Below are positions 6,391 through 45,309 of a stretch of 64,000 nt of DNA, in pieces (position 1 is the stretch's first letter; each line of letters opens with the position of its first letter). The notes beneath the pieces were generated by a model. It saw nothing but the letters and a program-made list of their open reading frames with translations, was not told the origin of the DNA and searched no databases. Both the position numbers and the translations under genes were made by a program. The DNA is taken from assembly GCA_001664505.1 (NCBI GenBank), contig CP011806.1, forward strand, positions 3,181,509-3,245,508, read 5' to 3'. Source of the DNA: Acidobacteria bacterium Mor1. GTDB lineage: Bacteria > Acidobacteriota > Polarisedimenticolia > Polarisedimenticolales > Polarisedimenticolaceae.

Positions 6391-6822
6391 ATGTTCCGGG
6401 GCAATGCGCTCGCAAAAATCGATGGCAAGGGCCGGCTGAAAATGCCGGCGGTCTATCGGTCCGCCCTGGAGGATACCGACTTCTACATCACGAGTCTGCG
6501 CGGGGAGTCGGTGCGGATCTATCCGATGCCCGCCTGGCGCAAGATCGAGGACCGGCTGGACAACGCCTCCTCCTTCGATCCTGCGGTGATGCGCTTCCGC
6601 AATTTCACCAGCTACTTCGGTCAGTCGGCGTCGATGGACGCCCAGGGGCGGGTGCTCTTGCATCCGCTCGTCCGGGAACGGGCCGCTCTCGACGGAGAGG
6701 TCGCCGTACTCGGACAGGGGGACTTCCTGGAAGTCTGGAACCGTGCCCAGTTCGAACGGCGGCTGCTCGACGAGCCGCTGACCGATGCCCACCTCAAGGA
6801 TCTTGCGGAGTTGGGTATCTGA
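6391..6822 (+). CDS. mraZ: Transcriptional regulator MraZ
   Basis: 143 aa from ATG 6391, which has a ribosome site (GGGAGGC); an upstream in-frame start at 6328 would add sequence foreign to the family. Two SpoVT/AbrB-like halves each carry the MraZ signature: AKIDGKGRLKMPAVYR in the first and SMDAQGRVLLHP in the second. MraZ forms ring-shaped oligomers that bind direct repeats and regulate the dcw genes. It is the first gene of the cluster, and the GTGG repeats upstream are its probable binding site. rsmH follows closely. Confidence 0.95.
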   Translation: MFRGNALAKIDGKGRLKMPAVYRSALEDTDFYITSLRGESVRIYPMPAWRKIEDRLDNASSFDPAVMRFRNFTSYFGQSASMDAQGRVLLHPLVRERAALDGEVAVLGQGDFLEVWNRAQFERRLLDEPLTDAHLKDLAELGI

Positions 6823-6834
6823 GGGGAGTAGCCG

Positions 6835-7809
6835 GTGGCCTGCACGGCGCGCAGCGAGGAAAACATGCCGACCCCGCACGCCGAACATCTGCCGGTCCTT
6901 GTCCCGGAAACGATGGATTTGCTCGCGGTCGAGCCGGGGATGACCTGCCTCGACCTGACCCTGGGAGCCGGAGGCCACAGCCGGGCGCTGCTCGAGGCCT
7001 CCGCACCCGACGGAATCGTCTACTCGATCGACCGTGACCCGCGGGCGCTCGAGATCGCAGGTGAACGGCTGGCGGGCTACGGCGACCGCTCGCGCCGCCT
7101 GCGTGGGAACTATCAGGACCTGCTGGCGCTGATGCAGGCGCAGGGGGTCGAACGGGTCGACCGCATCGTCGCGGATCTCGGAGTTTCGAGCATGCAGCTC
7201 GACGATCCCGAGCGGGGTTTCTCCTTCCGCCACGACGCGCGTTTGGACATGCGCATGGACCCGGATTCGGGGCAGAGCGCCGAGGAGTTGCTCGCCGAGG
7301 CGAGCGAATCGGAGCTGACCCGGATTCTACGGGACTACGGCGAGGAGAAGCGAGCGCGGGCGATCGCGCGAGCCATCGTCGCCGAACGTGAACGTGAACC
7401 GATCCGCACCACGAGCCGGCTGGCCGGCATCGTGGAAGAGGTTCAGGGGCCGCGGGCGCGGATGTATCGCATCCACCCGGCAACTCGAACCTTCATGGCC
7501 CTACGCGTCGCGATTAACTCCGAGGTGGATGGGCTGGAACAGGCGCTGCGCGACGCGGTGGACCTGCTCGCCCCGGGCGGCAGGATCGCCGTGATCGGCT
7601 TTCACTCGTTGGAGCTGAGGATCGTCAAGTCGGTGTTCCGCGATCTGGCCGATCGCTGCCGCTGCCCCCCGGGCCTTCCGGTCTGCGGTTGCGGCAACGA
7701 GGACGTGCTACGGCTTCTGACCCGTCGCGCCGTCAAGCCGGGCGAAGCGGAGATCGCCGCCAACCCCCGATCGCGAAGCGCCATGCTGCGGGCCGCGGAG
7801 AAGCGATGA
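6835..7809 (+). CDS. rsmH: 16S rRNA m4C1402 methyltransferase RsmH
   Basis: 324 aa. It methylates N4 of C1402 in the 16S rRNA decoding centre using S-adenosylmethionine. Family motifs are present: HLPVLVPETMDLL at the N-terminus, the SAM-binding DLTLGAGGHS, IDRDPRAL, FSFRHDARLDMRMDP, TRTFMALRVAINSE and VIGFHSLE. The GTG start at 6835 has a good ribosome site (GAGGGGAG, 6-nt spacing). ATG 6865 (MPTPHAEHLP) is an alternative that matches the usual family N-terminus. The stop overlaps the next gene (ATGA). Confidence 0.97.
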   Translation: MACTARSEENMPTPHAEHLPVLVPETMDLLAVEPGMTCLDLTLGAGGHSRALLEASAPDGIVYSIDRDPRALEIAGERLAGYGDRSRRLRGNYQDLLALMQAQGVERVDRIVADLGVSSMQLDDPERGFSFRHDARLDMRMDPDSGQSAEELLAEASESELTRILRDYGEEKRARAIARAIVAEREREPIRTTSRLAGIVEEVQGPRARMYRIHPATRTFMALRVAINSEVDGLEQALRDAVDLLAPGGRIAVIGFHSLELRIVKSVFRDLADRCRCPPGLPVCGCGNEDVLRLLTRRAVKPGEAEIAANPRSRSAMLRAAEKR

Positions 7810-8195
7810 AGTATCCGATCCGAGACGAGGCGGACCGGCGCTGGCGCAACGCCCCGGTGCGGGAGCCCGACCACGGAAAGGCCTGGCAGCTGCTGGGCTG
7901 GTTGGCGTTGATGCTGATCGCCTGCTCCCCCGTCGCCTTCTACCTGTTCCAACAGATGGAATACATCGAGACGATGTACCGCACCGAGGCGCTGCGCAAC
8001 GAGCGCGCCCGGCTGGTCGAGGCCGAGCGGCTGCTGCGGGTCGAGACCGCCTCTCTCGAGGCCTTGCCCCGGGTCGAGCGTGAGGCCGACCGGCTGGGAC
8101 TGGTGCCCGCGTCCCCTGAACAGATCATCGTCGTCGTGCCCTCCGGGCCGGTCGACGACAGCCTGGTAGCCGGCGTCACGCCGGCAGATCGGTGA
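7806..8195 (+). CDS. ftsL: FtsL-like cell division protein
   Basis: 129 aa starting at the ATGA overlap with rsmH. A short basic cytoplasmic N-terminus is followed by one transmembrane helix (LLGWLALMLIACSPVAFYLF, about residues 22-41) and a coiled-coil-prone periplasmic stretch (MYRTEALRNERARLVEAERL). Primary sequence is poorly conserved in FtsL, so the call rests on size, topology and the conserved position between rsmH and ftsI. FtsL joins FtsB and FtsQ to activate FtsWI septal synthesis. No FtsB gene is seen in this window. Confidence 0.8.
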   Translation: MKYPIRDEADRRWRNAPVREPDHGKAWQLLGWLALMLIACSPVAFYLFQQMEYIETMYRTEALRNERARLVEAERLLRVETASLEALPRVEREADRLGLVPASPEQIIVVVPSGPVDDSLVAGVTPADR

Positions 8196-8202
8196 GGTAG
8201 CC

Positions 8203-10170
8203 ATGGAGCAAAACCGCTTCCGTCATCGCATGTGGGGAGTCGTTCTCGGCGTACTCGCCGCGGCGACCTACGTGGGCTACACCCTCTACGATCTGCAGTA
8301 CGTGCGCGCCGCCGAGCTCAAGCAGCGCGCCGAGCGCCAGCAGCAGGACCAGGTCGAGATCGCCGGCGGCCGCGGTGCGATCCTCGATCGCAACGGGCGT
8401 GAACTCGCGGTCAGCGTCGAGACCGAATCGCTCTACGTGCACCCCTACCGGCTGACCGACGACGACGTGCGGCGCCGGGCGGCCCGGCAGATCGCCGAGG
8501 TGCTCGACGTGCCGACCAGCAAGGTCGCGAACAAGCTGAAGTCGGACAAGCCGTTCGTCTGGATTCAGCGCCGCCTCGACCCCAAGGTCGCCGAGAAGAT
8601 TCGCGAGCTTGACCTTCCGGTGGGCCCCGCCGGTGCGTTCCACTTCAAGCCCGAACCCAAGCGGGTCTACCCGCTGGGATCCACCGCCGCCCACGTGCTC
8701 GGTTTCGCCAACATCGACCAGAAAGGTGTCGAGGGCATCGAGCTGCTGTTCGACGATCTGCTGCAGGGCGATCCCGAAACGCACCTGGCGCTGCGCGACG
8801 GAGCCGGTGGCCGGGTGATGCAGCTGATCCAGGCGCCGACCCAGCAGCCGGAAGACCTGATCCTGACCCTGGACGTGGTGCTGCAGCACGCCGTCGAACG
8901 CGAACTCGAACGCGCCATGCGCGAGACCGGCGCCCGGGCGGCCTCGGCGGTTCTGCTCGATCCGACCACCGGCGAGGTGCTGGCCCTGGCCAACCGCCCG
9001 ACGGCCAACCCCAACCGCTACGGCAAGTCCACCGCGACGGACCGCCGCAACCGCGCCGTGGTCGACAGCTACGAACCGGGTTCGACGTTCAAGATCGTGA
9101 CCGCCGCCGCGGCTCTCGACCAGGGCACGATTCGCCCCGGGCAGCGCTTCGACTGCGAGAACGGCGGGATGCGTACCGGCGGCGACCTGGTTCGCGACCA
9201 CAAGAAGTTCGGCATCCTGACCGTCAGCGAGATCCTGCAGAACTCGAGCAACGTCGGCGTGATGAAGATCAGCCGCACCCTCGAGCCCGAGGTGTTTCAC
9301 GACTACGTGAAGCGCTTCGGCTTCGGCGAGCGCAGCGGCATCGAGCTACCCGGCGAACAGCGCGGCATCGTGCACCCGGTCGCCAACTGGTCCAGCCGCA
9401 CCGGCGACACCATGGCCTTCGGCCAGGAGGTCGGCGTGACGGTGCTCCAGATGGCCTCCGCCTTCGCCACGGTGGCCAACGACGGCGTGCGGGTCGCGCC
9501 GCGCATAGCCCTGGGCCGCCGGGACGCCGACGGGTTCGAGCGTTTCCCGGAACCGCCGAACAAACAGGTCATCGCGCCGGACATCGCCCGCCGCTTGAGC
9601 CACATGCTCGAACTCGTGGTCGCCGACGGCACCGGACACAACGCCGCCATCGACGGCTACTCCATCGCGGGCAAGACCGGTACGGCCCAGATCTTCGGAC
9701 CCGGCGGTTACTCCAAGACCGACTACATGGCCAGCTTCGGCGGCTTCGCGCCGGTGCACGCGCCGGCCATCGCCGGCATCGTGACCCTGGACACCCCCGA
9801 AGGGGAGCGCCACCAGGGCGGCCAGGTTGCCGCACCGGTGTTCCGGCGCATCCTCGCCACCGCCCTGCCCCACCTGCGGGCTGCCCGTGACGAAGGTGTG
9901 CTGGCGGTGGATCCGAACCGTCACGACGAACCGCTTCGGGCCAACTGGGTTCGCCAGCGCACGAAGCCGCGAAAGGTGCCGGCGGGTTCCGCCGACTCCC
10001 TGCCCGACGTGCGGGGGCTCCCGCTGCGTTCGGCAATCGCGCGGCTGGCGGCCAGCGGCTGCCGGCCGGAGGTCATCGGAAGCGGAACCGTCACCGCCCA
10101 GCAGCCGGCCCCCGGCGACGCCCTCGGCCCCGAGGGCCGCTGCGTCGTACGGGCGGAGAGGAGAAGCTAG
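8203..10170 (+). CDS. ftsI: Septal peptidoglycan transpeptidase FtsI (PBP3 class B) with one PASTA domain
   Basis: 655 aa. A single N-terminal membrane helix (residues about 11-29) is followed by the pedestal domain (GGRGAILDRNGRELAVS) and a transpeptidase domain. Catalytic motifs are S294 in GSTFK, S348-N350 (SSN) and K491 in KTG. It cross-links septal peptidoglycan together with FtsW. The C-terminus (about 590-650, LPDVRGLPLRSAIARLAASG) is one PASTA repeat, which the E. coli enzyme lacks but which occurs in many other phyla. It starts 7 nt after ftsL. Confidence 0.96.
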   Translation: MEQNRFRHRMWGVVLGVLAAATYVGYTLYDLQYVRAAELKQRAERQQQDQVEIAGGRGAILDRNGRELAVSVETESLYVHPYRLTDDDVRRRAARQIAEVLDVPTSKVANKLKSDKPFVWIQRRLDPKVAEKIRELDLPVGPAGAFHFKPEPKRVYPLGSTAAHVLGFANIDQKGVEGIELLFDDLLQGDPETHLALRDGAGGRVMQLIQAPTQQPEDLILTLDVVLQHAVERELERAMRETGARAASAVLLDPTTGEVLALANRPTANPNRYGKSTATDRRNRAVVDSYEPGSTFKIVTAAAALDQGTIRPGQRFDCENGGMRTGGDLVRDHKKFGILTVSEILQNSSNVGVMKISRTLEPEVFHDYVKRFGFGERSGIELPGEQRGIVHPVANWSSRTGDTMAFGQEVGVTVLQMASAFATVANDGVRVAPRIALGRRDADGFERFPEPPNKQVIAPDIARRLSHMLELVVADGTGHNAAIDGYSIAGKTGTAQIFGPGGYSKTDYMASFGGFAPVHAPAIAGIVTLDTPEGERHQGGQVAAPVFRRILATALPHLRAARDEGVLAVDPNRHDEPLRANWVRQRTKPRKVPAGSADSLPDVRGLPLRSAIARLAASGCRPEVIGSGTVTAQQPAPGDALGPEGRCVVRAERRS

Positions 10171-30698: not shown

Positions 30699-32093
30699 TC
30701 ACGGTTTTTTTGGGGTAACCACGCTGGCCACCCCTAGCCGAAATGTCGGCGCGCCGACGCTTGTGGCCAGGGGCTGACCATCGCGCACGCACGTTCCGAT
30801 ACAGGTGTCGAAGGCGAGGTCCGAGGCGATCTTGTCCACCCCGTTCACGAAGTCCTCCACTTTAACTTTTAGAAGGCACGTGGTAAGCGAGCGGCCGAGC
30901 CGCCCCTCGTGAATCTGGTCTGCATCGGTCACCCGCAGGGTCGCGGTCCCGGTTGCCGGGTCGGCGACGGCCGCCTCCGCACGCCGAACGAACAGACCCT
31001 GCTCAACACTGGTCACCCCTTCCTCGGGCCGATGGGTTCCGGCGGCCATGAAGGTGCAGCCGAGCCGCGGGAGCACCGGGTCGCGGTAGCCCGCACGGCG
31101 TCCATGGCCGGTGGAGGCCGCCCCGGCGAGGCGGGCGGTGCGCCGGTCGTGGATGCCGGATAGCAGGCGGCCACCTCGCAGCAGGGCGGTTGCCCGGCAG
31201 GGGGTGCCCTCGTCGTCGATCCGCCAGGGTGTCCGGCCACGGCGCGGATCTTCGATGACCACCATCGAACTGTCGAAGGGAGTGGAGAGCCGGGCGAGGC
31301 GGGACCGTCCCTCGAGAACCGCGTCCGCCTCCAGGGCGTGGCCGATCAACTCATGGACCAGTACCCCGCCGGTGCCCGGGGCGAACACCACAGGCATGTT
31401 GCCGGCGGTGGGTGCCACTGCATCGAGGCGGGTGGCGGCCCGCTCAACGGTTGCCGACGCCCAGCCCTCGAGGTCGTTGGTATCGGGGAGCCGGTCTCCG
31501 CGAAGGACACGGTCGAGCCGTGCCACGGACCGGCGGTTGCCTGCGGCCCCGCGAACCTCGAGATGTACCCGGCGGCCGACCCGGCGATCCCCGGCCGGGT
31601 CGGCTCCGTCCGCCACGATCAGGATGCGCTGGTCGAACTCCACCAGCCGCGCCCGGACACTGAAGCCGCGGGGAGCCTCCCGCCCCGCCGCGGCCGCCAG
31701 CCGGACCAACCAGTCGGCGACGGCCGAGGGGGGTGGCTCGTGATGCCGTGGGGAAGCGGCGCCCCGGGGCAACGGAGCGGTTCCGTCGACCGCCGCGGCA
31801 GCGACCGCTGCGACATCCTCGACGCGGGGCTCGGCGACGTAGGCGTAGCCGGGATCGGTCAGCCCGGCCCGGACCGAGAGCCCCGAAGTCCAGCCCCGGC
31901 TACCCGAGCGGACACCGTCGGGACCGGCGACCGTGGTGCGGTCGTCCCGCCACTCCATGAACAGCAGGTTGCCCGGGTCGGCTGGGAGGGCGCGCAACGC
32001 TGCGCTCAGCGCCTCTCGCAGGCGCTCGCGATCGCCGGTTTTCCCCTGAAAACGGGCAGTTTCCGCGTCTCTAGGCTCGCTTGAAAGGCCCAT
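30699..32093 (-). CDS. tldD: TldD-type metalloprotease
   Basis: 464 aa. The metal-binding HExxxH lies at H247-E248-H252 (VLVHELIGHALEADAVLEG), the TldD signature with the third ligand expected in the C-terminal CIGTCVRDGQ region. VVIEDPRRGRTPWRIDDEGTP and SVGAPTFRLG are also TldD-like. With the downstream partner it would form the TldDE heterodimer. Divergently transcribed from the receiver-TonB gene; its first codons overlap the -35 box of that gene. Confidence 0.88.
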   Translation of the reverse strand: MGLSSEPRDAETARFQGKTGDRERLREALSAALRALPADPGNLLFMEWRDDRTTVAGPDGVRSGSRGWTSGLSVRAGLTDPGYAYVAEPRVEDVAAVAAAAVDGTAPLPRGAASPRHHEPPPSAVADWLVRLAAAAGREAPRGFSVRARLVEFDQRILIVADGADPAGDRRVGRRVHLEVRGAAGNRRSVARLDRVLRGDRLPDTNDLEGWASATVERAATRLDAVAPTAGNMPVVFAPGTGGVLVHELIGHALEADAVLEGRSRLARLSTPFDSSMVVIEDPRRGRTPWRIDDEGTPCRATALLRGGRLLSGIHDRRTARLAGAASTGHGRRAGYRDPVLPRLGCTFMAAGTHRPEEGVTSVEQGLFVRRAEAAVADPATGTATLRVTDADQIHEGRLGRSLTTCLLKVKVEDFVNGVDKIASDLAFDTCIGTCVRDGQPLATSVGAPTFRLGVASVVTPKKP

Positions 32094-32109: not shown

Positions 32110-32184
32110 TGACGCGGGCGCACGGCAGTGGCCGCCGATTAAACAAGAAGAACTCGACAGTACACGGCGTACGGGAAGGTTGCA

Positions 32185-34719
32185 ATGGCGCAGAAGACCA
32201 TCCTCCTGATCGACTACGATCCTCGCAGCATCGAGAGCATCAAGGGCCCGCTGGAAGAGGTTGGCTACCAGGTGGCCGTGGCCGGAGACGGCGTCGCGGG
32301 CATGGAAGCCTTCGAACAGCTCCGCCCCGCGATGGTCTTCGTCGAGGCCATGATCCCCAAGAAGCACGGCTTCGAGGTCTGCCAGGACCTGAAGAAGACC
32401 GAGCTCGGCAAGCAAACCCCGATCGCCATCGTCACGGCGGTCTACCGGGGCCAGAAGTACCGCAGTCAGGCCTTCCACAACTACCACTGCGACGAGTACC
32501 TGGAGAAACCGGTGGACCGGGACACCCTGTTGGCGGTGACCAAGAAGTTCGTCGAGGACCGCGCCGCTGCCATGGAAGCGGTTCAGCGCCAGCGCGCCGA
32601 AGAAGCCGATCCGGTGGTGACCTCCTCCGAGCCGGCCGGTGCCCCGGCCGTTGCGGCGAGCACCGCTGCATCCCCGGCGGAACCCGCCGGGGCCCAGGCT
32701 CAGGCCGCCCCGCCGGCAGCAACTCCGGCGTCGCAGCCGTCTGCGGCATCCCCTGCCGCCGGCCCGGCTTCGGGCATGGGCCAGGTCGGGGTGACTCCGG
32801 GCAAGCCCGGTGTCGAGAGCCTGGCCTGGGATGACCTGCTGGAAGACCCTCCGGCCGCCGCGGTCAAGAAGAAGTCCTCGGACTCACCGGTGGCGGGGCT
32901 GAGTGACGACGAAATCATGGAACGGCTCGATTCGATTCTCCCCGGTGACGCCCTGGGCGAAGCTCCGGAGATCGTCGAAGCGGTCGATTCTTCGCCGGGA
33001 GACGTCGACGACGGCGAAGCGCCTCAGATGGTGGCGGTCGACCTGACCGAAGACGACTCGATGCCCGATCTCGACGCGGCGCTGGATGCCCTGGTTCCCG
33101 AGGATCTGCGCTCCTCCCCGGCCCCGGCCGAGGCGGAACCCGCTGCCCAGGCTCAGACGCCGCAGCCGAACGCCGACGCAGCCGAACCGGCGGCGGCGGA
33201 ACCGGCTGCTGAACCGGCCCAGGCCGCGGCCTCGGCTCAGCCGACCCCTCCGGCCGAGGCCGAAGGCGAAGATACGGCGCTAACCGACGAGCTGGACCGG
33301 GCGGTGGACACCCTGCACATGGGCGCCGACCCGCAGCCGGTGCAGAAAAAGCCGGCCCAGGCCGCCACCGTCCCGGGCCCTGCATCCGGGCAGGGTCAGC
33401 CGGCAACCGAGGCGCCGGCCGAGAACCTGATCTCCTTCGATCCCGATCGAAAGAAGAAAAAAGCCCAGGCCAACGCCGAGGACGCCGTCGCGGCGACGGC
33501 GGCTGCCGTTCAGGCCGCCATCGAGGCGGACGCCGCGCCCGTCGAACCCCAGAGCGACGGCAAGCGCTCGGGCATGCCCTGGATGATCGCCATCGCCGCG
33601 CTGGTCGTGCTGGGTGCCGGTGTCGGAGCCTACTTCATGCTCCAGGGAGGCTCCCCCTCCGGCGAATCCGCAGCCGCGACCCAACCGGCCGCCTCGAATC
33701 CGGCACCGGTCGAGAACGAGGCCACCCAGGTCCCGGCGGTCGGGGTCGGGACGCCTGCCGCCGAAGCCACCGACGATTCGCCACTGAAGCCCGAGACCCA
33801 GGCCACCGCCGACAACGACACTGCGGCTGCCGGCCAACCGGCCCGTGCGGAGGCTGAGCCCCAGACCCGGTCCCGGCCCACGCCGGCAGCGGCGAAGCCC
33901 TCGACCACGCCCTCGACCACGCCGACCCGCACCGCCGAGCGCCGCACAACCCCGCCGGTCAACGTGGAATCGAAACCGGCCCCTGCGAAGCCGGCACCCC
34001 GTCGCGAGGAAACCACCGCCGCCGCGAAAGAGCGCTGGGAGCGGACGCCCCCGGCCGAGAACAACACGCGTCAGGCCGCCTCGAAGTCGGCGGATCGCTC
34101 GGCCAACTCCGGCCAGGCCGCCCCTGTAAGAACCGCGCCATCCCGCCCCGCCACCGACGAGGCCCAACCCGCCTCGGGCACGGCGAACCCCGGCGCCGTC
34201 GATTCGAGCAACCCGGCCGACACGAAGCCGGCGGAGCAGTCGGCGACGCAAGGGTCGGCCGCTTCCAACGATCCGGCTCCGAGCCGGGTCGAGAGCCAGC
34301 CGACTCGCGAACCGGTCCGGCAACCGGAAACCCGGACGACCTCTCAGCCGGTCACCACGCCGGCGCCCACTCCGGCGGCCAAGGTCGCCGAGCCCGCACC
34401 GAAGCTCCCCGAGGTGCCCCGCACCACCCGCGGACAGCTGGTCGATCTGACGTCGGTCGATCGGGCGCCCGAGGCCCTGAGCAAGGTCGCACCGGTCTAC
34501 CCGCCCGCCGCGAAGCGCGCCCGGCGCCAGGGTGAGGTCGAGTTGATGCTGCTGATCAACGAGAACGGCCAGGTCGCCGACATCGAGGTGGTCCGCGGAG
34601 TCAAGATGTTCGAGAAATCGGCCATCGCCGCCGCGGAGCAGTGGACCTACCGCCCGGCTCAAAAGGACGGGGTCGATGTGAAGGTCTGGATCGCCGAGCG
34701 CATCGCCTTCACCCTCTAG
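32185..34719 (+). CDS. Fusion of degenerate receiver domain, membrane span and TonB C-terminal domain
   Basis: 844 aa. Residues 1-125 form a CheY-like receiver with D10 and D12 (ILLIDYDP), T84 (IVTA) and K108 (YLEKPV), but the phospho-acceptor position is E54 (VFVEAMIPKKHGFE). It may therefore be locked or phosphorylation-independent. An Ala/Pro/Glu-rich cytoplasmic linker leads to one membrane helix (about 463-485, MIAIAALVVLGAGVGAYFML), then about 275 residues of Pro/Ala/Thr-rich periplasmic linker and a TonB C-terminal domain (about 765-844; VYPPAAKRARRQGEVELMLL). TonB passes proton-motive energy to outer-membrane receptors. The next genes encode a BtuF/C/D-like importer. Ribosome site GGGAAGG. 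Confidence 0.88.
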   Translation: MAQKTILLIDYDPRSIESIKGPLEEVGYQVAVAGDGVAGMEAFEQLRPAMVFVEAMIPKKHGFEVCQDLKKTELGKQTPIAIVTAVYRGQKYRSQAFHNYHCDEYLEKPVDRDTLLAVTKKFVEDRAAAMEAVQRQRAEEADPVVTSSEPAGAPAVAASTAASPAEPAGAQAQAAPPAATPASQPSAASPAAGPASGMGQVGVTPGKPGVESLAWDDLLEDPPAAAVKKKSSDSPVAGLSDDEIMERLDSILPGDALGEAPEIVEAVDSSPGDVDDGEAPQMVAVDLTEDDSMPDLDAALDALVPEDLRSSPAPAEAEPAAQAQTPQPNADAAEPAAAEPAAEPAQAAASAQPTPPAEAEGEDTALTDELDRAVDTLHMGADPQPVQKKPAQAATVPGPASGQGQPATEAPAENLISFDPDRKKKKAQANAEDAVAATAAAVQAAIEADAAPVEPQSDGKRSGMPWMIAIAALVVLGAGVGAYFMLQGGSPSGESAAATQPAASNPAPVENEATQVPAVGVGTPAAEATDDSPLKPETQATADNDTAAAGQPARAEAEPQTRSRPTPAAAKPSTTPSTTPTRTAERRTTPPVNVESKPAPAKPAPRREETTAAAKERWERTPPAENNTRQAASKSADRSANSGQAAPVRTAPSRPATDEAQPASGTANPGAVDSSNPADTKPAEQSATQGSAASNDPAPSRVESQPTREPVRQPETRTTSQPVTTPAPTPAAKVAEPAPKLPEVPRTTRGQLVDLTSVDRAPEALSKVAPVYPPAAKRARRQGEVELMLLINENGQVADIEVVRGVKMFEKSAIAAAEQWTYRPAQKDGVDVKVWIAERIAFTL

Positions 34720-34793: not shown

Positions 34794-35702
34794 ATGAGAA
34801 AGACGAACGAGATCCCGCCCGCGGCCGGCCGGCTGTTGCCGATCCTCTGGATCGTGCTGCTTGCCTGTCTCGCATGTGGGTCGCCCCAGCAGGAATCCTC
34901 CGGCGATGCCTCGCAAGACGCCCCCCCCCGGCGCATCGTCTCGCTCACCCCTTCGATTACCGAGATCCTGTTCGCCCTCGGCCTCGGTGAGCGGATCGTC
35001 GGAGTGACCCAGTTCTGCGACTGGCCCGCGGAAGCCGCCGCCAAACCGCAGGTCGGCGGCTACTCCAACCCTTCGATCGAAAGCGTGCTGGCCCAACGCC
35101 CCGACCTGGTCCTGGTCAGCCCCAACACCGGCAACCGGGAAGCCGCTCTTGCCATCGAGCGAGCGGGGGTTCGCCTCGAAGTTATCGAGGGGGACAGCCT
35201 GGAAGAGACCTACCTGGCGGTTCGACAGGTCGCCGACGCCGCCGGGGTACCCGAGGAAGGCCAGCGCCTCGCCGCCGAGATCCGAGCACGGATCGATGAA
35301 GCGGGACGCCGGGTCGCCGGCCGCGAGCCGGTGCCCGCGCTGTTCTCGGTGCAGCTCGAGCCGATGATCGCGGCGGGCTCCGACACGTTGATCTCGGAGC
35401 TGCTCGAAGCCGCCGGCGGCCGCAACGTGGTTCAGGCCGAGGGCTACCCCCGGCTCGGGATCGAGACCGTGCTTCAGAGCGGCCCCGCGGTGGTGTTCCA
35501 GACCCGTATGGGCATGGAGGCCGAAGAAGAACGGGCGTTGACCGATGCCTTCTGGCAACGCTGGCCGGCGCTGCCGGCGGTACGCGACGGCAGGGTCGCC
35601 CTGATCGATGCCTCGATCGCGACTCGACCGGGGCCGCGGATCGCCGACGCCGTCGATGAGCTCGCCCGCCGGCTACACCCCGAGGCATTCGAAACCCCGT
35701 GA
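34794..35702 (+). CDS. BtuF-like periplasmic substrate-binding lipoprotein of a metal-chelate/cobalamin ABC importer
   Basis: About 302 aa from ATG 34794, which has GAGGTGA 8 nt upstream; a TTG at 34770 is also in frame. A hydrophobic signal sequence ends in the lipobox region ACLACGS. The mature part is a helical-backbone binding protein (RRIVSLTPSITEILFALGLG, GGYSNPSIESVLAQRPDLVL), matching the BtuF/FhuD class. Cobalamin is the likely cargo given the riboswitch, BtuB-like receptor and adenosyltransferase in the same 18 kb, but haem or a siderophore is not excluded. It overlaps the permease start. Confidence 0.85.
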   Translation: MRKTNEIPPAAGRLLPILWIVLLACLACGSPQQESSGDASQDAPPRRIVSLTPSITEILFALGLGERIVGVTQFCDWPAEAAAKPQVGGYSNPSIESVLAQRPDLVLVSPNTGNREAALAIERAGVRLEVIEGDSLEETYLAVRQVADAAGVPEEGQRLAAEIRARIDEAGRRVAGREPVPALFSVQLEPMIAAGSDTLISELLEAAGGRNVVQAEGYPRLGIETVLQSGPAVVFQTRMGMEAEEERALTDAFWQRWPALPAVRDGRVALIDASIATRPGPRIADAVDELARRLHPEAFETP

Positions 35703-36712
35703 GGCCCAGGGCGCTCATGGCGCTGCCGTTGCTGCTGGCGCTGCTACCGATCTCCCTGTTGCTGGGTCTCGGCATCGGCACCAGCGGCGCGGGTTGGTCG
35801 GACTTACCCGGATTGTGGAACGACGACGCCGACCCGGTCGTGCGTCAGATCCTGATCGACGTGCGCCTGCCCCGGGTGTTGCTCGCCGCACTGGTCGGCG
35901 CCGCCCTCGCCGCCGCCGGCGTGGCCTACCAGGGCGTGTTGCGTAACCCGCTGGCCGACCCGTTCATCCTGGGTGTCTCCGGCGGCTCCGCACTCGGTGC
36001 CGTGCTGTTCGGCGCGGCGGCGGGCGCCACCTCCCTCGGCGTGCTCGGCCGGCCGGCAGCAGGATTCGGCGGCGCGCTGGTCACGCTCTTTCTACTGTTC
36101 CGGCTGGCCCGGCTCGGCGGCCGCACCGGGCCCACCACGTTGCTGCTGGTCGGTGTCGTACTCAACGCCATCGCTTCGGCATTGATCCTGTTCGTGATCA
36201 CCGCCGGTGATCCGGCGCGCTTCCAGGGTGAGTTCTTCTATCTGATCGGCCGCATCCCGCCGCAACCGCTCTCGACCCTGCTGGCCATCGCGATCTGGCT
36301 GGCCCTGGGCCTCGCGGTGCTGGCGACCCAGAGCCATCGACTCAACCTGCTGGCTCTCGGTGAAGATGCCGCGGGACAGCTCGGCGTCGATCCCGAGCGT
36401 TCGATGTGGATCACGGTGCTCGCCGCGTCACTGGTTACCGCGGCGGCTGTAGCCTTCACCGGACTGGTCGGGTTCGTCGGCCTGATCGTGCCCCACATCG
36501 TGCGCACGCTGCTCGGGCCGGACCACCGCATTCTGTTGCCCTGCGCGACCCTCGCCGGCGCCTCCTTTCTCGTGTTGGCCGATTCGGCCGCGCGAGTCGT
36601 TGCCGCTCCGGTGGAAATTCCCGTCGGGGTACTGACGACCCTGATCGGCGGCCCCTTCTTCCTGGTGCTGTTCCTGCGTCACCTGCGAGAGGAGGGCGGC
36701 GCCGTGGGGTAG
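35699..36712 (+). CDS. BtuC-like permease (FecCD family)
   Basis: 337 aa with about ten membrane helices. FecCD signatures: RLPRVLLAALVGAALAAAGV, YQGVLRNPLADPFILGVSGG, FTGLVGFVGLIVPHIVRTLL (with the coupling helix), LLGPDHRILLP and PVEIPVGVLTTLIGGPFFL. It forms the membrane channel of the importer with the neighbouring binding protein and ATPase. The GTG start overlaps the btuF-like stop (GTGA). The stop TAG at 36710-36712 sits in GTGGGGTAG, which may allow frameshifting into the ATPase frame. Confidence 0.93.
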   Translation: MRPRALMALPLLLALLPISLLLGLGIGTSGAGWSDLPGLWNDDADPVVRQILIDVRLPRVLLAALVGAALAAAGVAYQGVLRNPLADPFILGVSGGSALGAVLFGAAAGATSLGVLGRPAAGFGGALVTLFLLFRLARLGGRTGPTTLLLVGVVLNAIASALILFVITAGDPARFQGEFFYLIGRIPPQPLSTLLAIAIWLALGLAVLATQSHRLNLLALGEDAAGQLGVDPERSMWITVLAASLVTAAAVAFTGLVGFVGLIVPHIVRTLLGPDHRILLPCATLAGASFLVLADSAARVVAAPVEIPVGVLTTLIGGPFFLVLFLRHLREEGGAVG

Positions 36713-36714
36713 CT

Positions 36715-37506
36715 CTGGAACTGCAGCAGGTCGACTTCGACTACGGGCGCGGACCGCTGCTGCAGGATGTCACCTTCCGCATCGACGCCGGCGAGATGAC
36801 CGGCCTGCTCGGCGCCAACGGTGCCGGCAAGACGACACTGGTGCGTCTGGCCTCCGGTCAACTCCAGTGCCGCCGGGGTACCGTGCGCCTCGACGGCGAC
36901 GATGTATCCCGCCTGACGCCGCGGGACCGCGCCCGGCGCATCGCCGTGGTGCCCCAGGAAACCCGGCTGACCTTCGGCTTCGATGTCGAACAGGTGGTCG
37001 CCATGGGACGCGCCCCTCACCAGGGACGCCTGGGGCTGGAACGCCCCGAAGACCGCAGGGTCATCGAGGAGTCGATGGAGCTCACCGGCGTCGCCGATCT
37101 CCGGCGGCGTCCGTTCCAGCAGTTGTCGGGAGGAGAACGGCAACGTGTGGTGATCGCCCGGGCGTTGGCGCAACAGGCGTCGCTCCTGCTCCTCGACGAA
37201 CCGACGGCCTTTCTCGATCTGCGGCACCGGGTCGAGACCTATGAACTGTTGCGGCGGCTGCATCGTGACGACGGGCCGGCGATCCTGCTGGTGAGCCACG
37301 ACCTGAACATGACCGCGCGCTACTGTTCCCGCTTGCTGCTCCTCGGCGAAGGCCGGCTTCTGGCCGACGGCGCTCCGGGCGAGGTGTTGAACCGGGAGCT
37401 GATCCGTCAGGCCTACGGCGTGGACAACCAGGTATTGCAGGATCCGCTCTACGGTCATCCCTACGTCGTGCCTCTCGGCGGCGATGACCGGGAGCCCGCA
37501 TCGTGA
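36715..37506 (+). CDS. BtuD-like ABC transporter ATPase, start codon uncertain
   Basis: About 263 aa. Family homology begins at LELQQVDFDYGRGPLLQDV. Walker A GANGAGKTTL, signature LSGGERQRVVIARAL, Walker B SLLLLDEPTAFLDL, and the H-loop VSHDLNMTARYC are all intact. No ATG, GTG or TTG lies in frame near the expected N-terminus: the nearest upstream is ATG 36406, deep in the permease gene. I place the start at CTG 36715 as a working choice. A -1 slip at GTGGGGTAG before the permease stop, giving a fused protein, or a missed base in the G run would also explain it. The next gene overlaps by 4 nt. Confidence 0.82.
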   Translation: MELQQVDFDYGRGPLLQDVTFRIDAGEMTGLLGANGAGKTTLVRLASGQLQCRRGTVRLDGDDVSRLTPRDRARRIAVVPQETRLTFGFDVEQVVAMGRAPHQGRLGLERPEDRRVIEESMELTGVADLRRRPFQQLSGGERQRVVIARALAQQASLLLLDEPTAFLDLRHRVETYELLRRLHRDDGPAILLVSHDLNMTARYCSRLLLLGEGRLLADGAPGEVLNRELIRQAYGVDNQVLQDPLYGHPYVVPLGGDDREPAS

Positions 37507-39238: not shown

Positions 39239-40789
39239 CTAGTCGAGGGCTTCGATTGCGAACGGGGGCAATCCGAGGTTCACGCAGCCCAGCGCGGTCT
39301 CGGCATCCTGGGGATCGGCAGGTATCCGATAGAGGCAGACCTTCGGCTCGACGAAGGAACGCTCGGGCACCGCCAAGAGGCCGCTGCCGCCGAGCGCAAT
39401 CTCGGGCAAGAAGTCGGGAGTGCTGCGCACCGTGCGCAAGGGCCTGGCGGCGACCGGATCGAAGGCCACCACCGAGCTACGGAACTGCTCGTCGACGACG
39501 ATGGTGTAGCCGAGCCCCGGCGAGACCATCGCCAACCCACCGATGTTGCCGCCGGCGTCGTCGTCATCCAGGGCCCAGGACTCCACCGCCCAGTCCACCG
39601 GATCCACGACCACCACGCCGCCGGAGAGTTCCCGGGGCACGAGCCCGGGGAAGATGCCGGCCAACGCCACGTACAGCCGCTCCCCGTCGGGTGTCTCCAC
39701 GACCTCGATCACCCCCGGGTTCTTGCCGCCGAGTGCCACCACACCGGCCACGCTGTCCGTGTCGGGATCGATCACCGCCAGCTTTCCCTCGGCGTAGCGG
39801 GTGAAGGTGCGATCGATATCCTGCATGCCGGCGAAGACGTAGCCGCCGGCATAGGCCAGGCGATCGAGCCGTGGAGTGCCGTCCCGGTTCTCCGCCTCTT
39901 CCTCCAGCGGAATCGAGGCGCGGACAGTGCCCCCCTTGGGCGTGAACCGGGCCACGTCATCGAAGGGCGGCTCGTAACGGCTGACGAAGGCGCGCTCGTC
40001 GTCGAGCATCAGCACGTCATGGGGATTGGAGCCGGCCCCGGTCCCCGCTTGCCACGCCGTTCGGAACCCGTCGTCGGGATCGAGACGCTGCAGGTTGTCG
40101 AAGGTGAAGCGGTTGATCACGAACACCGCGCCGCCGGTGACCCGCAACTCGGGATCGGAGCTGACCAGTTCCAAACCGTCGGTCAGGCGCAGCTCCCGTT
40201 GCTTGACCCAGGCGACCTCGGCGACCTGGCCGCTGGCGAAGAAGTCGGTGGTGGTCAGGAGAAAGCGCTGGCGGCGCCAGCCGGCGAACGTACCCGGCAG
40301 GCCGCTCTGGCTCTCCCATGATTCGCCGGCAACCGACCAGCCGCCGTCGATGCTGTCGCCACGCACCGTCAGTTCGAAAACCGTGTCGGCGACCCGCAGC
40401 GGCCCGATGCGGCCGGTGGTCCACGACGTAGGCGAGGCAAACACCGTCGTACCGCCGTTGACCGAAAGATCCTCCACCGTGCCGCTGGCCTGGTCCCAGC
40501 GGGCGAGACCGGGCTCGACCTTCGCGAACCGTTCGCCGAAGCCACCGGCCTCGACGTGCAGCGTCAATTCGAGTTCGACGCCACGCTGCACCGCGCCCTG
40601 GATCAAGAGCTGAGGCAAGGTCACTTCCAGATCGATCACCTGCCCCAGCGCGGCGGCCGGTGCGCCGGTGGTCGGCAGGTCCGGCGGCGAGTAGTCACTG
40701 CCGCACCCGCAGACGGCGACGAGCGACAGCGACAGCGCCGCCGACAGGCCCAGGCCCTTGAAGCGCCGGAGCATCGCGGTCCCGATCAT
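39239..40789 (-). CDS. Beta-propeller-like lipoprotein next to BtuB (BtuG-like by position)
   Basis: About 516 aa from ATG 40789, which overlaps the receptor stop (ATGA); starts at 40807 and 40774 are alternatives. The signal sequence ends near VCGCGS, a likely lipidation site. The body has repeated strand motifs such as GKLAVIDPDTDSVAGVVALG and GGVVVVDPVDWAVESWALDD, typical of YVTN/SMP30-like propeller blades. In Bacteroides, BtuG is a surface beta-propeller lipoprotein that captures cobalamin and caps BtuB; this gene has the same architecture and neighbour. Orthology is not shown by sequence here. Confidence 0.8.
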   Translation of the reverse strand: MIGTAMLRRFKGLGLSAALSLSLVAVCGCGSDYSPPDLPTTGAPAAALGQVIDLEVTLPQLLIQGAVQRGVELELTLHVEAGGFGERFAKVEPGLARWDQASGTVEDLSVNGGTTVFASPTSWTTGRIGPLRVADTVFELTVRGDSIDGGWSVAGESWESQSGLPGTFAGWRRQRFLLTTTDFFASGQVAEVAWVKQRELRLTDGLELVSSDPELRVTGGAVFVINRFTFDNLQRLDPDDGFRTAWQAGTGAGSNPHDVLMLDDERAFVSRYEPPFDDVARFTPKGGTVRASIPLEEEAENRDGTPRLDRLAYAGGYVFAGMQDIDRTFTRYAEGKLAVIDPDTDSVAGVVALGGKNPGVIEVVETPDGERLYVALAGIFPGLVPRELSGGVVVVDPVDWAVESWALDDDDAGGNIGGLAMVSPGLGYTIVVDEQFRSSVVAFDPVAARPLRTVRSTPDFLPEIALGGSGLLAVPERSFVEPKVCLYRIPADPQDAETALGCVNLGLPPFAIEALD

Positions 40790-42816
40790 CGCGCGGCCCT
40801 CTGCCAACCGACGTGCAGCAACACGACCCGGGAGGGCAACGGGTAGCGGGCAACGTCGCGGACCTGCCGGTCGAACAGGTTGCGGATATCGAGACCGAGT
40901 CGTGCGCCGCCGCGCAGGCGCACCCCGAAGCGCACGTCGTGGAGCAACCGGGAACTCATGCGCAGCTCCGGCGTATCCGCCCGGTCGGTGCTGTTGGCGC
41001 CGACGTAGGTCGCATCCCAGCGGCCGTCGACCCGGCCCTGGGTCCAGCTCAGCCCCAGATAACCGAGGCGCTCGGGCTCGTAGACCAACGGCTTGCCGTC
41101 GAACACGATCGCCGAGCTCTCCTCGGGACGCTGCAACGTGCCGCCGGCGCTCAGCGCGATCCCTCCCTCGAACCTGAGATCGACCGAGGCCTCCAGCCCG
41201 GACACCCGGGCGCCACCGAGGTTCTGAAAGCGGGCGATTCCCTGGGCGTTGTTCAACAGCCAGATCAGGTCGTCCACATCCCGGTGGAAGCCGAGCAGCT
41301 CGACGCTCAGTCGATGTCCCTCGCCGTCGAAGCGGCGCTGCACGCCGAACTCACCGCTCCACCCGCTCTCCGAGCGCAGCTCCGGGTTGCCGACGATGGC
41401 GCCGCGGTTGCCGAACAGCTCGGTCAGGTTCGGCGCGCGGAAGAAACGGCCGACGGAACCTCGAAGCTGGGTGCGGGGTCCCAGGGTCCAGGCCAGCCCG
41501 AACTTGCCCGAGACTCCGGTCTCTCCCACATCCCCCGACGGCGGCGGCAGCGTGCCCTGCCCTCCGGCGAGAAAACGATCTTCACGGCGCTCGACCCGCA
41601 ACGCCGGCGCCAGGGTCAGGCGTCCACGGGTCACGACGTCTTCGACGGTCCAGGCCCAGGAGACACGTTCGGCGCCACCCCGGTCGACGATGTCGAGGGC
41701 CTGGTCATCGACCTCCGCACGCTCGAAGCGCCCGTCGAAGCGCAATCGCACACTGTGGGAGCCCCGCCGCAGCGCTCCCTGGGCCGCGAAACCACCGCCG
41801 CGAATCTGCGTGGTTTGATCGATGAGGAACACCGGTCCCTCGAGATCCCGGAATCCCCCGCGCTGATCGACCAGATCGATCTGAGTCTCGACGGCGTCGA
41901 AGACGCCGAAGTCCTCCCTGCGATGGGACAGCACCAGGTTGACGTTGCGATCGGTGGCGGTGGCACTGGGGGAGGGCGTGAAATTTTCGATGCCGGGCAC
42001 GCCCTGCTCGCGATCCTGTCCACGCAGCGACAGCCGGTAGCTGCCCCGCCCCGGCGGCGCCCAGACCCCGGACACCGAGACCGAGCGATGTTCGAGGCCA
42101 TTGTTCTCCCGGCGCCGCACCACGTCGTCGCCGGAGTTGAACGGGGTCGCTCCGGTATCGAGGTAGCGATAGTCCCCTTCGCTCTCCAACGACTCGACGC
42201 CGAAACGGAGGTGACCGTGCTCCCCGGCGGGCACCACGGCACCGCCGGAAACCCGGGTGGTACCCAGCTCGCCGGCGAGCAGGTCGAAGCGGCCTTCCGC
42301 CGCTTCCGGTTCGCGGGTGCGAATGTCGATCAGGCCACCGAGCCCGCCGAGGCCGAGATGCGCCGGACCGAAGCCGCGGAAGACGGTGACCTCGGCGATG
42401 TCCGACGCGGGGATGGCAGCCAGGTTGACCGGGCCACCCAGAGCGCGGTTCTGGGGCACGCCGTCCACCAGCACCGTGACCTGTTCGGCGGTCGAGCCGC
42501 GCAGGGAAACCGTCGCGTACTGGCCGAGCCCGCCGTAGTCCCGTACCCGGGCACCGGGCACCTGACGCAACAGGTCGGAAAGGTCTGCGCCCTGGGCCGC
42601 CAGATCCCGGGCATCGAGGGTCGTGACGAAGGCCGCCACGTCCTCGGTCTCGGGAGTTTCTCCCTCGACCCGCACCGATTCACGCACGCCCGACGGCCGC
42701 GCCGTTTCGGCAGCGGCTTCGTCGCTGCTCTCGCCGGAGGCCCAGAGCGGGAGCCCGGCGAGCAGCGTCAGGGACAGTCCGAGGACGTGTCCCGCGGCTC
42801 GAGGTCCGAAGACCAT
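40786..42816 (-). CDS. btuB: TonB-dependent outer-membrane receptor, BtuB-like
   Basis: 676 aa from ATG 42816, which gives a proper signal peptide (GHVLGLSLTLLAGLPLWASG); it lies 49 nt inside the upstream gene. A TonB-box-like stretch (VRESVRVEGET) precedes a complete plug domain (LSDLLRQVPGARVRDYG, VTVLVDGVPQNRALGG, IAEVTVFRGFGPAHLG). The rest is a beta-barrel with many aromatic strands and late motifs FFRAPNLTELFG and LDIRNLFDRQV. Substrate is inferred as cobalamin from the riboswitch upstream and neighbours. It would draw energy from a TonB such as the receiver-TonB fusion. Confidence 0.9.
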   Translation of the reverse strand: MVFGPRAAGHVLGLSLTLLAGLPLWASGESSDEAAAETARPSGVRESVRVEGETPETEDVAAFVTTLDARDLAAQGADLSDLLRQVPGARVRDYGGLGQYATVSLRGSTAEQVTVLVDGVPQNRALGGPVNLAAIPASDIAEVTVFRGFGPAHLGLGGLGGLIDIRTREPEAAEGRFDLLAGELGTTRVSGGAVVPAGEHGHLRFGVESLESEGDYRYLDTGATPFNSGDDVVRRRENNGLEHRSVSVSGVWAPPGRGSYRLSLRGQDREQGVPGIENFTPSPSATATDRNVNLVLSHRREDFGVFDAVETQIDLVDQRGGFRDLEGPVFLIDQTTQIRGGGFAAQGALRRGSHSVRLRFDGRFERAEVDDQALDIVDRGGAERVSWAWTVEDVVTRGRLTLAPALRVERREDRFLAGGQGTLPPPSGDVGETGVSGKFGLAWTLGPRTQLRGSVGRFFRAPNLTELFGNRGAIVGNPELRSESGWSGEFGVQRRFDGEGHRLSVELLGFHRDVDDLIWLLNNAQGIARFQNLGGARVSGLEASVDLRFEGGIALSAGGTLQRPEESSAIVFDGKPLVYEPERLGYLGLSWTQGRVDGRWDATYVGANSTDRADTPELRMSSRLLHDVRFGVRLRGGARLGLDIRNLFDRQVRDVARYPLPSRVVLLHVGWQRAAR

Positions 42817-43985
42817 CCGTACTGCTCCCGGTTCGCCGTGCGAACCACGTAGAAGAAACCCTCGCCGGCCGCGGGCTGATCCGCGTCGCAGCTGTAGCGC
42901 ACCGCGGCCGGCCCCTGGTACAGGCAGGTCGTATTGCCGAGGTCGACCCCGCCGGCGTCGGCGAAGAGCATCGACAGGTCTCCACGCAGAAGCGCGTAGG
43001 ACTCGGTGCTCCCCAGGAAGGTCCAGCGGGCCTCGGTGCACGCCGCGCCGCTCAGCCACAAGCGCGGCTCCGCGAGATGCGCGGGACCGGCCAGGGCGGA
43101 GTTGGCATCGCGACAGGCCGCCACCTCGCGGCCGTCGTCGACGCCGTCGAGGTCGCTGTCGCTCAACGCCGGGTCGGTGCCGTAGAGCTCGACCTCGGCG
43201 GCATCGCTCAGGCCGTCTCCGTCGCTATCGGATGCAGCCGGCTGGGTCGGCCGTCCGTTGAGCACCACGACGGCGTCGAGATCGAAACCGTCGCCGGCGC
43301 CGGGGAAGCCGTTCCTGCTGTCGGCATCGATGATGCGGACGTAGCGCGCCTCGCTCAATCCCACCGTCGCCAGATCGAACGCGTCACCGCCGGCGCCGGA
43401 TATGCCGTTGGTTCCGGCGGGATCCCAGACGTCAGGATCGTCGGGCACCGTCCAGTCGCCGGTGAGCGTCGGCGTCAGCCCGGCCAGCCCTCGCAGATCG
43501 AGATACAGCGCCCGGTCGACTCCGCTGACGCCGCTGGCCGCGGCCAGGGCGCCGGCATCGTAGGGGAAAGCGACCCACTGAACGCCGTCGGCGGAGACCT
43601 CGACGATCCCCGGCTCGACGAAAACGACGAAGTCGTCGGCGGGATCCGTCGGACCGGCGCCGGAAAAGAACGCGTTCTCGAACACGATGAAATCGGGACC
43701 GGGACCGTCCTCCAGGATCACGTCCGCCCAGCTGAAGACTGCGCTGCCGCCATGACCCAACGATGCCACGCTGGTCGAACCGATCACCGGCGCCGAATCA
43801 CCGGGAGGGCCGAGCACGATGCCCGGAAGGTTCGCCGCGCCGAAGCGCACCGATGGATCCGGTCCGGCCGCGGACCACTCGAGGCGGTCGGGAAGGCAGT
43901 CCACCGGCTGCGACCGCTCACCGGCGAACGGCGTGGCCGCGATGAGCCACGCCGCCGCCAGCATCACGAGGACGCGACGATTCAT
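42768..43985 (-). CDS. Secreted protein with calcium-binding TSP3-like repeats
   Basis: 405 aa from ATG 43985, which overlaps the upstream stop (ATGA). A signal peptide (LVMLAAAWLIAATPFAG) is followed by a beta-rich domain (DFIVFENAFFSGAG, VEVSADGVQWVAFPYD, GDAFDLATVGLSEARYVRI). Near residue 280 are Asp-rich repeats (DSDGDGLSDAAEVELYGTDP, DSDLDGVDDGREVA) like thrombospondin type 3 calcium sites. Proteins of this general kind are found near BtuB genes, but I cannot name a family with confidence. Its position in the riboswitch operon suggests a surface role in corrinoid capture. Confidence 0.75.
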   Translation of the reverse strand: MNRRVLVMLAAAWLIAATPFAGERSQPVDCLPDRLEWSAAGPDPSVRFGAANLPGIVLGPPGDSAPVIGSTSVASLGHGGSAVFSWADVILEDGPGPDFIVFENAFFSGAGPTDPADDFVVFVEPGIVEVSADGVQWVAFPYDAGALAAASGVSGVDRALYLDLRGLAGLTPTLTGDWTVPDDPDVWDPAGTNGISGAGGDAFDLATVGLSEARYVRIIDADSRNGFPGAGDGFDLDAVVVLNGRPTQPAASDSDGDGLSDAAEVELYGTDPALSDSDLDGVDDGREVAACRDANSALAGPAHLAEPRLWLSGAACTEARWTFLGSTESYALLRGDLSMLFADAGGVDLGNTTCLYQGPAAVRYSCDADQPAAGEGFFYVVRTANREQYGWSSDLEPRDTSSDCP

Positions 43986-45022: not shown

Positions 45023-45104
45023 CATTTCCTCCGATAGACCGGTCAAGCCGGCAATCGGCGGCGCTCGGCGGTCGAACCTGCCCCTGGTCGGTTCAACACC
45101 ATCG

Positions 45105-45275
45105 GCATGCGTCGGTCTCCTGGCTTGCGGGTCAACCGGCTAGCCGCGCCTTCCCAGGGTTTCCCCCAGTGGCAGGTCCTGAAGCAGGACCCCGCGGTTG
45201 CCGTCGCCGCTCACAGTCGCCGGGCGGCATGGGATTCACACCCAATTTCCCGTTACGCCTGCCGTGCTCTGACCG
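45105..45275 (-). promoter_or_regulatory. Cobalamin (B12) riboswitch
   Basis: Read on the minus strand. Conserved elements appear in order: GAGCACGGCAGGCGTAACGG, GGGAAATTGGGTGTGAATCCC, CGACTGTGAGCGG, GGTCCTGC...GCAGG-type internal stem, CCACTGGGGGAAACC, GGGAAGGCGCGG, and the B12 box AAGCCAGGAGACCGACG (45110-45126). This matches the AdoCbl-class riboswitch family. Bound cobalamin should favour the downstream terminator and shut off the five-gene uptake operon. Confidence 0.95.
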
Positions 45276-45279
45276 ACGG

Positions 45280-45309
45280 AGAGTACCAGAGGCCACCGCG
45301 GCCGGGCAA
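45280..45309 (-). promoter_or_regulatory. Candidate promoter of the riboswitch operon
   Basis: On the minus strand TTGCCC (45309-45304), an 18-nt spacer and TACTCT (45285-45280). Transcription would begin near 45273, just before the riboswitch core. The match is moderate. Confidence 0.4.

Follow-up and report, generated by a model that had tools for sequence, protein, structure and literature searches.

TonB energy transducers commonly, though not universally, have ExbB and ExbD encoded nearby, and transmembrane Ser/Thr kinases of the Hanks type carry an extracytoplasmic sensor domain. TonB and TolA contact ExbB and TolQ through a Ser-x3-His (SHLS) motif in the transmembrane (TM) helix, the His of which is essential for Ton and Tol activity (PMC12215075). 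One known protein already links a signalling domain in the cytoplasm to the C-terminal domain of TonB (TonB_C): GltG of the Myxococcus xanthus gliding machinery consists of an FHA domain, a TM helix and TonB_C (PMC3169522, PMC5349195), and it binds the TolQ homologue AglR (PMC3169522). Pseudo-receivers are defined by the loss of any of five active-site residues of the receiver (REC) domain (PMC12632262), and one of them, FrzS of M. xanthus, retains the receiver fold without a phospho-acceptor and is regulated by protein binding (PMC1974792, PMC12632262), contacting its partner SgmX through its alpha3-beta4-alpha4 surface (PMC12632262).

We analysed a 64,000-nucleotide stretch of the genome of Acidobacteria bacterium Mor1 (the window), which encodes an 844-residue protein on the forward strand (32185-34719) whose ATG is preceded, after a gap of 5 bases, by the ribosome site GGGAAGG (32173-32179). 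Pfam detected two domains in it, and neither an FHA domain nor a kinase: a receiver (Response_reg, residues 6-118, 32200-32538; 2.8e-15, 56.9 bits, far over the cut-off) and TonB_C at the C terminus (residues 769-844, 34489-34716; 1.3e-18, 67.7 bits against a cut-off of 24.6), which TIGR01352 also matched at 47.9 bits. AlphaFold2 modelled the N-terminal domain as a receiver fold (pLDDT 96), and Foldseek matched this model to solved receivers, including the FrzS pseudo-receiver (E 1.8e-9, 28% identity). Hydropathy gave a single hydrophobic helix (residues 468-486, 33586-33642), separated from the receiver by about 345 disordered residues on the predicted cytoplasmic side and followed by a predicted periplasmic linker of about 280 residues (33643-34488), which is rich in Pro, Ala and Thr and consists to 77% of P, A, E, K, T, S, G and Q. 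The receiver would thus lie inside and TonB_C outside. Orthologues in the same order have receivers that are 55-63% identical. Pfam, AlphaFold2, Foldseek and hydropathy therefore agree that the receiver-membrane helix-TonB protein proposed in a preliminary description of this DNA is real, with a receiver fold within residues 1-125.

Escherichia coli TonB shares the single TM helix, the Pro-rich periplasmic linker and TonB_C with the window protein, and its short cytoplasmic tail sets it apart. It further differs in having the SHLS motif and ExbB/D partners (PMC12215075). The nearest described design is GltG: it and GltJ similarly place a cytoplasmic signalling or interaction domain, a single TM helix and a periplasmic TonB_C in line, but GltG carries FHA rather than a pseudo-receiver, belongs to a motility cluster with the TolQR-like AglRQS, and appears with no kinase versions in these papers (PMC3169522, PMC5349195). 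Among characterised pseudo-receivers, FrzS comes closest; unlike the proteins described here, it is a polar-localised social-motility protein without TonB_C, and the Y11/E54 signature discussed below is known here from the REC-TonB family.

The active site of the window receiver is broken twice. The metal-binding pair reads D10-Y11 (Y11 codon at 32215-32217) and the acceptor position holds E54 (codon at 32344-32346), while T84 and K108 are kept; of the DD, D, T and K residues, the loss of at least one of which marks a pseudo-receiver, Y11 and E54 thus remove two. The preliminary description had read E54, T84 and K108 correctly, but its "D12 kept" was a register slip of one residue because the acidic pair comprises the neighbouring residues 10 and 11. 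From relatives we gathered 80 related receivers, 50 of which have TonB_C in the same frame. Across these 50 REC-TonB proteins the acceptor site is Glu in 21, Ser in 12, Arg in nine, Asp in four, Tyr in two, and Gln and Ala in one each, so that 46 of the 50 lack Asp. Residue 11 is Tyr, Phe, His or Asn in all 50, which breaks the metal-binding pair throughout and makes even the four Asp-bearing members pseudo-receivers; among ordinary receivers with a residue at that position, it is Asp in 79 of 80. We also considered E54 as a chance substitution and rejected this, Glu being fixed in the lineage of the window protein and the few homologues with Asp all lacking the second metal-binding acid.

Conserved residues specific to the family and absent from ordinary receivers include Y11, F43, E54, H61, G75, Y87, Y92, R93, A96 and E107, of which Y87, Y92, R93 and A96 cluster on beta4-alpha4, inside the surface with which FrzS contacts SgmX (PMC12632262). 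The window receiver bears this family signature (D-Y-[DE]-P, the beta4-alpha4 residues and E107) fused to a TM helix and TonB_C. Since the receiver is unable to use the normal Asp/Mg chemistry, control would operate by protein binding rather than phosphorylation, a proposal of the preliminary description that the broken site supports.

The membrane helix also departs from that of energy-transducing TonBs. In the window protein it contains neither Ser nor His, and a TM His is present in none of the 50 REC-TonB proteins and in 16 of 16 TonBs adjoining ExbD in the same genomes, one of them borderline (L017, with His at the helix edge). We found no ExbD in the window, in agreement with the preliminary description, nor near any REC-TonB locus tested; the window genome has 16 TonB_C and eight ExbD matches, with separate ExbD-TonB loci. 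The lack of the TM His throughout the family and of ExbD near the loci tested is the strongest argument, not proof, against an energy-transducing role. Because GltG binds the TolQ-like AglR, TolQ-type motor coupling may not need the His; the helices compared were those of REC-TonB and of ExbD-linked TonBs. We infer that the REC-TonB family is not coupled to the PMF. It had been suggested earlier that the receiver controls energy coupling to uptake; the His-less helices, the absence of ExbD nearby and the kinase-bearing relatives described below speak against this. Six other TonB_C proteins of the window genome (L021, L023, L024, L025, L026 and L027) have a signal-peptide-like start and lack a neighbouring ExbD gene; this genome thus seems to employ TonB_C generally as a module for export.

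All 50 REC-TonB proteins recovered by our search for other proteins of this architecture come from Acidobacteriota, across several classes. None was found among REC loci of other phyla, and 15 genomes of other groups gave no sign of one: the best receivers there reached 101.7 bits, whereas family members score 109-181; this cut-off is approximate and the survey incomplete because three ordinary Acidobacteriota receivers score 106-123 bits. In 27 of the 50, a Pkinase domain lies between the receiver and the TM helix (REC-Pkinase-TM-TonB_C; seen at L081, L082, L084, L088, L093, L096, L211-L217, L221-L225, L227, L230, L239, L247, L248 and L250). The six kinase-bearing relatives submitted to Pfam scored 133-154 bits, HRDxSPxN and DFG motifs occur in all 27, and most also matched the catalytic Lys motif; judged by these motifs, which are intact, the domains are Ser/Thr kinases. 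They resemble Hanks-type kinases in combining a cytoplasmic kinase, a single TM helix and an external globular domain, but have TonB_C as the outer domain and a pseudo-receiver at the N terminus, and the window protein, with its whole class, is kinase-less. These relatives are the more surprising part of the finding. The presence of a kinase in half of the family points to signalling, and the role of TonB_C here is probably that of a sensor or tether and not of a power source for nutrient uptake. Among the papers searched we found no report of REC-TonB or kinase-TonB_C fusions, and this REC-(Pkinase)-TM-TonB_C family, which is widespread in Acidobacteriota, is apparently undescribed.

The preliminary description had asked whether Glu is conserved at the acceptor site across such proteins. 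It is conserved in only part of the family, and Ser and Arg dominate the kinase-bearing part: Glu occurs in 20 of 23 kinase-less and one of 27 kinase-bearing members, an association that is strong by counts (Fisher p 7e-10) but corresponds to only 2-4 independent pairs on the tree, too few for a test. The tree is midpoint-rooted and built from few columns.

Between the receiver and the TM helix, the window protein carries a short helix motif (residues 235-259, 32887-32961; PVAGLSDDEIMERLDSILPGDALGE) for which profile scores reached 40 bits among orthologues and no more than 3.7 bits in linkers shuffled 20 times each. In the six genomes searched, strong scores were confined to family members, which ruled out a general docking motif used genome-wide. 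The motif is kept even in orthologues consisting of the receiver alone, where it forms the extreme C terminus (L062, L068, L069, L071 and L072 end in it). We considered docking of this helix on its own receiver, and AlphaFold2, run on the receiver together with the linker, predicted the helix weakly (mean pLDDT of the block about 55) and did not dock it, so that an outside partner is more likely to be what the helix binds. Outside the class of the window protein, REC-TonB is followed directly and on the same strand by a gene for a coiled-coil protein of 80-90 residues with no significant Pfam family (examples are L082:3039-3308 and L235:5012-5263 on the minus strand and L084:9898-10119 on the plus strand). 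This gene was found in 15 of 37 genomes searched, once in each, and adjoined REC-TonB in all 15; it is absent from the window genome, from its class and from three further control genomes.

On its other side, the window gene has a divergent PmbA/TldD peptidase gene (30699-32093, minus strand; Pfam PmbA_TldD_3rd), a neighbour kept in the class. Downstream, beginning after 75 bp and on the same strand, are genes for a btuF-like periplasmic binding protein (34794-35702; Pfam Peripla_BP_2, with BtuF among the best NCBIfam hits, under cut-off), a btuC-like permease (35699-36712; Pfam FecCD, 283 bits, best NCBIfam BtuC, under cut-off) and a btuD-like ATPase (36709-37506; Pfam ABC_tran, best NCBIfam corrinoid ATPase, under cut-off). 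A BtuB-like TonB-dependent receptor of uncertain true start (40786-43059, minus strand; plug and barrel, best NCBIfam TonB-B12, under cut-off) lies 6 kb from the REC-TonB gene, behind a cobalamin riboswitch (45093-45286, minus strand; RF00174, 81.9 bits). On the minus strand between 45286 and 43060, the riboswitch is followed by two exported-looking proteins and then by the receptor, which together probably make up a B12 uptake unit extended by further parts.

The same btuF/C/D order follows on the same strand in six relatives of the class besides the window, for one of which a contig break had to be bridged by inference, and in eight loci of the kinase-bearing R-type clade, and btuB also follows on the same strand in several genomes. 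In nine of the btu-linked loci a cobalamin riboswitch separates REC-TonB from btuF, which places REC-TonB outside the B12 regulon there. Most relatives outside these two lineages have no adjoining btu genes; in other lineages REC-TonB or its receiver-only form adjoins accD and folC. This points to an older locus that either received the btu genes by insertion or lost them. Judging from gene position only, the neighbouring cobalamin receptor is the likely outer-membrane client in the lineage of the window protein.

We favour, at a little better than even odds (about 0.55), the interpretation that the window protein belongs, as a member without kinase, to a family of Acidobacteriota proteins that pass the membrane once and serve in signalling or tethering at the envelope, with TonB_C as a periplasmic contact domain that is not energised by ExbB/ExbD. 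The layout of such a protein would be a pseudo-receiver, a kinase in about half of the members, a disordered linker, a His-less TM helix, a disordered periplasmic linker and TonB_C. TonB_C would probably contact a partner in the outer membrane, for instance the Ton box of a TonB-dependent receptor, and the His-less helix would join the inner and outer parts without ExbB/D coupling, so that the cytoplasmic side could read or hold the contact. In kinase-bearing members the kinase would do the reading and be regulated by the TonB_C contact. In the window protein, the conserved beta4-alpha4 surface of the pseudo-receiver and the RLDxxLPGD-type linker helix may together form a docking platform that takes this part by binding cytoplasmic partners, and the protein would then be an adaptor or a tether, plausibly in the vicinity of BtuB. 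Points against this interpretation are that the window protein itself has neither a kinase nor the coiled-coil partner, and that, as the receiver-only orthologues show, TonB_C is not needed for the receiver to work. TonB_C is usually taken as proof of energy-coupled import, and here it is joined to a pseudo-receiver or kinase without the ExbB-coupling His. If TonB_C can sense or tether outer-membrane state, the automatic annotation "energy transducer TonB" of such genes is misleading, and a signalling route across the whole envelope becomes testable in Acidobacteriota.

A related reading, which we hold only tentatively, takes TonB_C as the periplasmic input of a class of pseudo-receiver transmembrane Ser/Thr kinases that sense the outer membrane; the window protein would be a kinase-less branch and Glu54 a fixed mimic of phosphorylation. 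The reading of the preliminary description, in which the pseudo-receiver controls the activity or position of a TonB energy transducer, seems unlikely to us in the form of a true transducer dedicated to B12 uptake through BtuB. The intact TonB_C, the btu genes downstream on the same strand and a 280-residue linker whose length suffices to cross the periplasm all fit it, but it would have to accommodate a TM His missing family-wide, the lack of ExbD near the loci tested, the separate ExbD-TonB loci that the window genome already has, the kinases of relatives, the nine loci where the riboswitch excludes the gene and the relatives outside the two btu-linked lineages, most of which do not stand beside btu genes.

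Signalling may also be absent altogether, with the pseudo-receiver anchoring a cytoplasmic structure and TonB_C anchoring the outer membrane or peptidoglycan in positioning of the GltG/GltJ kind. The likeness to GltG in joining a cytoplasmic interaction domain to TonB_C (PMC3169522), the long disordered linkers on both sides of the membrane, the small coiled-coil partner in sister lineages and the lack of an enzyme in the window protein fit such a passive tether; we nevertheless consider it improbable, because the intact-motif kinases in 27 relatives argue for signalling and no motility genes were seen among the conserved neighbours of REC-TonB, those of the window gene being PmbA/TldD and btu genes rather than a Glt/Agl cluster.

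There is very little chance, in our estimate, that function resides in the receiver, with TonB_C an easily lost accessory, in which case the fusion would say little about TonB. Such a loss would account for the receiver-only orthologues, with E54 kept, that occupy the same place in seven genomes (G001-G005, G017 and G020) and for further receiver-only forms in other families. Yet REC-TonB persists as 50 proteins in several classes; of the five same-family genomes that have a receiver-only copy, four keep a separate REC-TonB as well; and in G001-G005, where the receiver-only form takes the position of the window gene, btuC lies elsewhere with no TonB_C beside it. A frame error or truncated assembly is unlikely to underlie the receiver-only forms, since several genomes are consistent and C-terminal motifs are shared: beside those ending in the helix motif of the window protein, forms of other families end in a different common tail, DExDIxEELPDPxSV. 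E54 is kept in receiver-only relatives at L062, L068, L069, L071, L072 and L226-L246. Receiver alone, REC-TonB and REC-kinase-TonB form a natural series for asking what the pseudo-receiver does. Tandem arrangements were seen as well: one genome of the class of the window protein has two successive REC-TonB genes (L175:4451-6610 and 6681-9059, plus strand), and about nine TonB_C matches within 3.5 kb (G007:C10:169503-173052) suggest tandem TonB_C-domain proteins.
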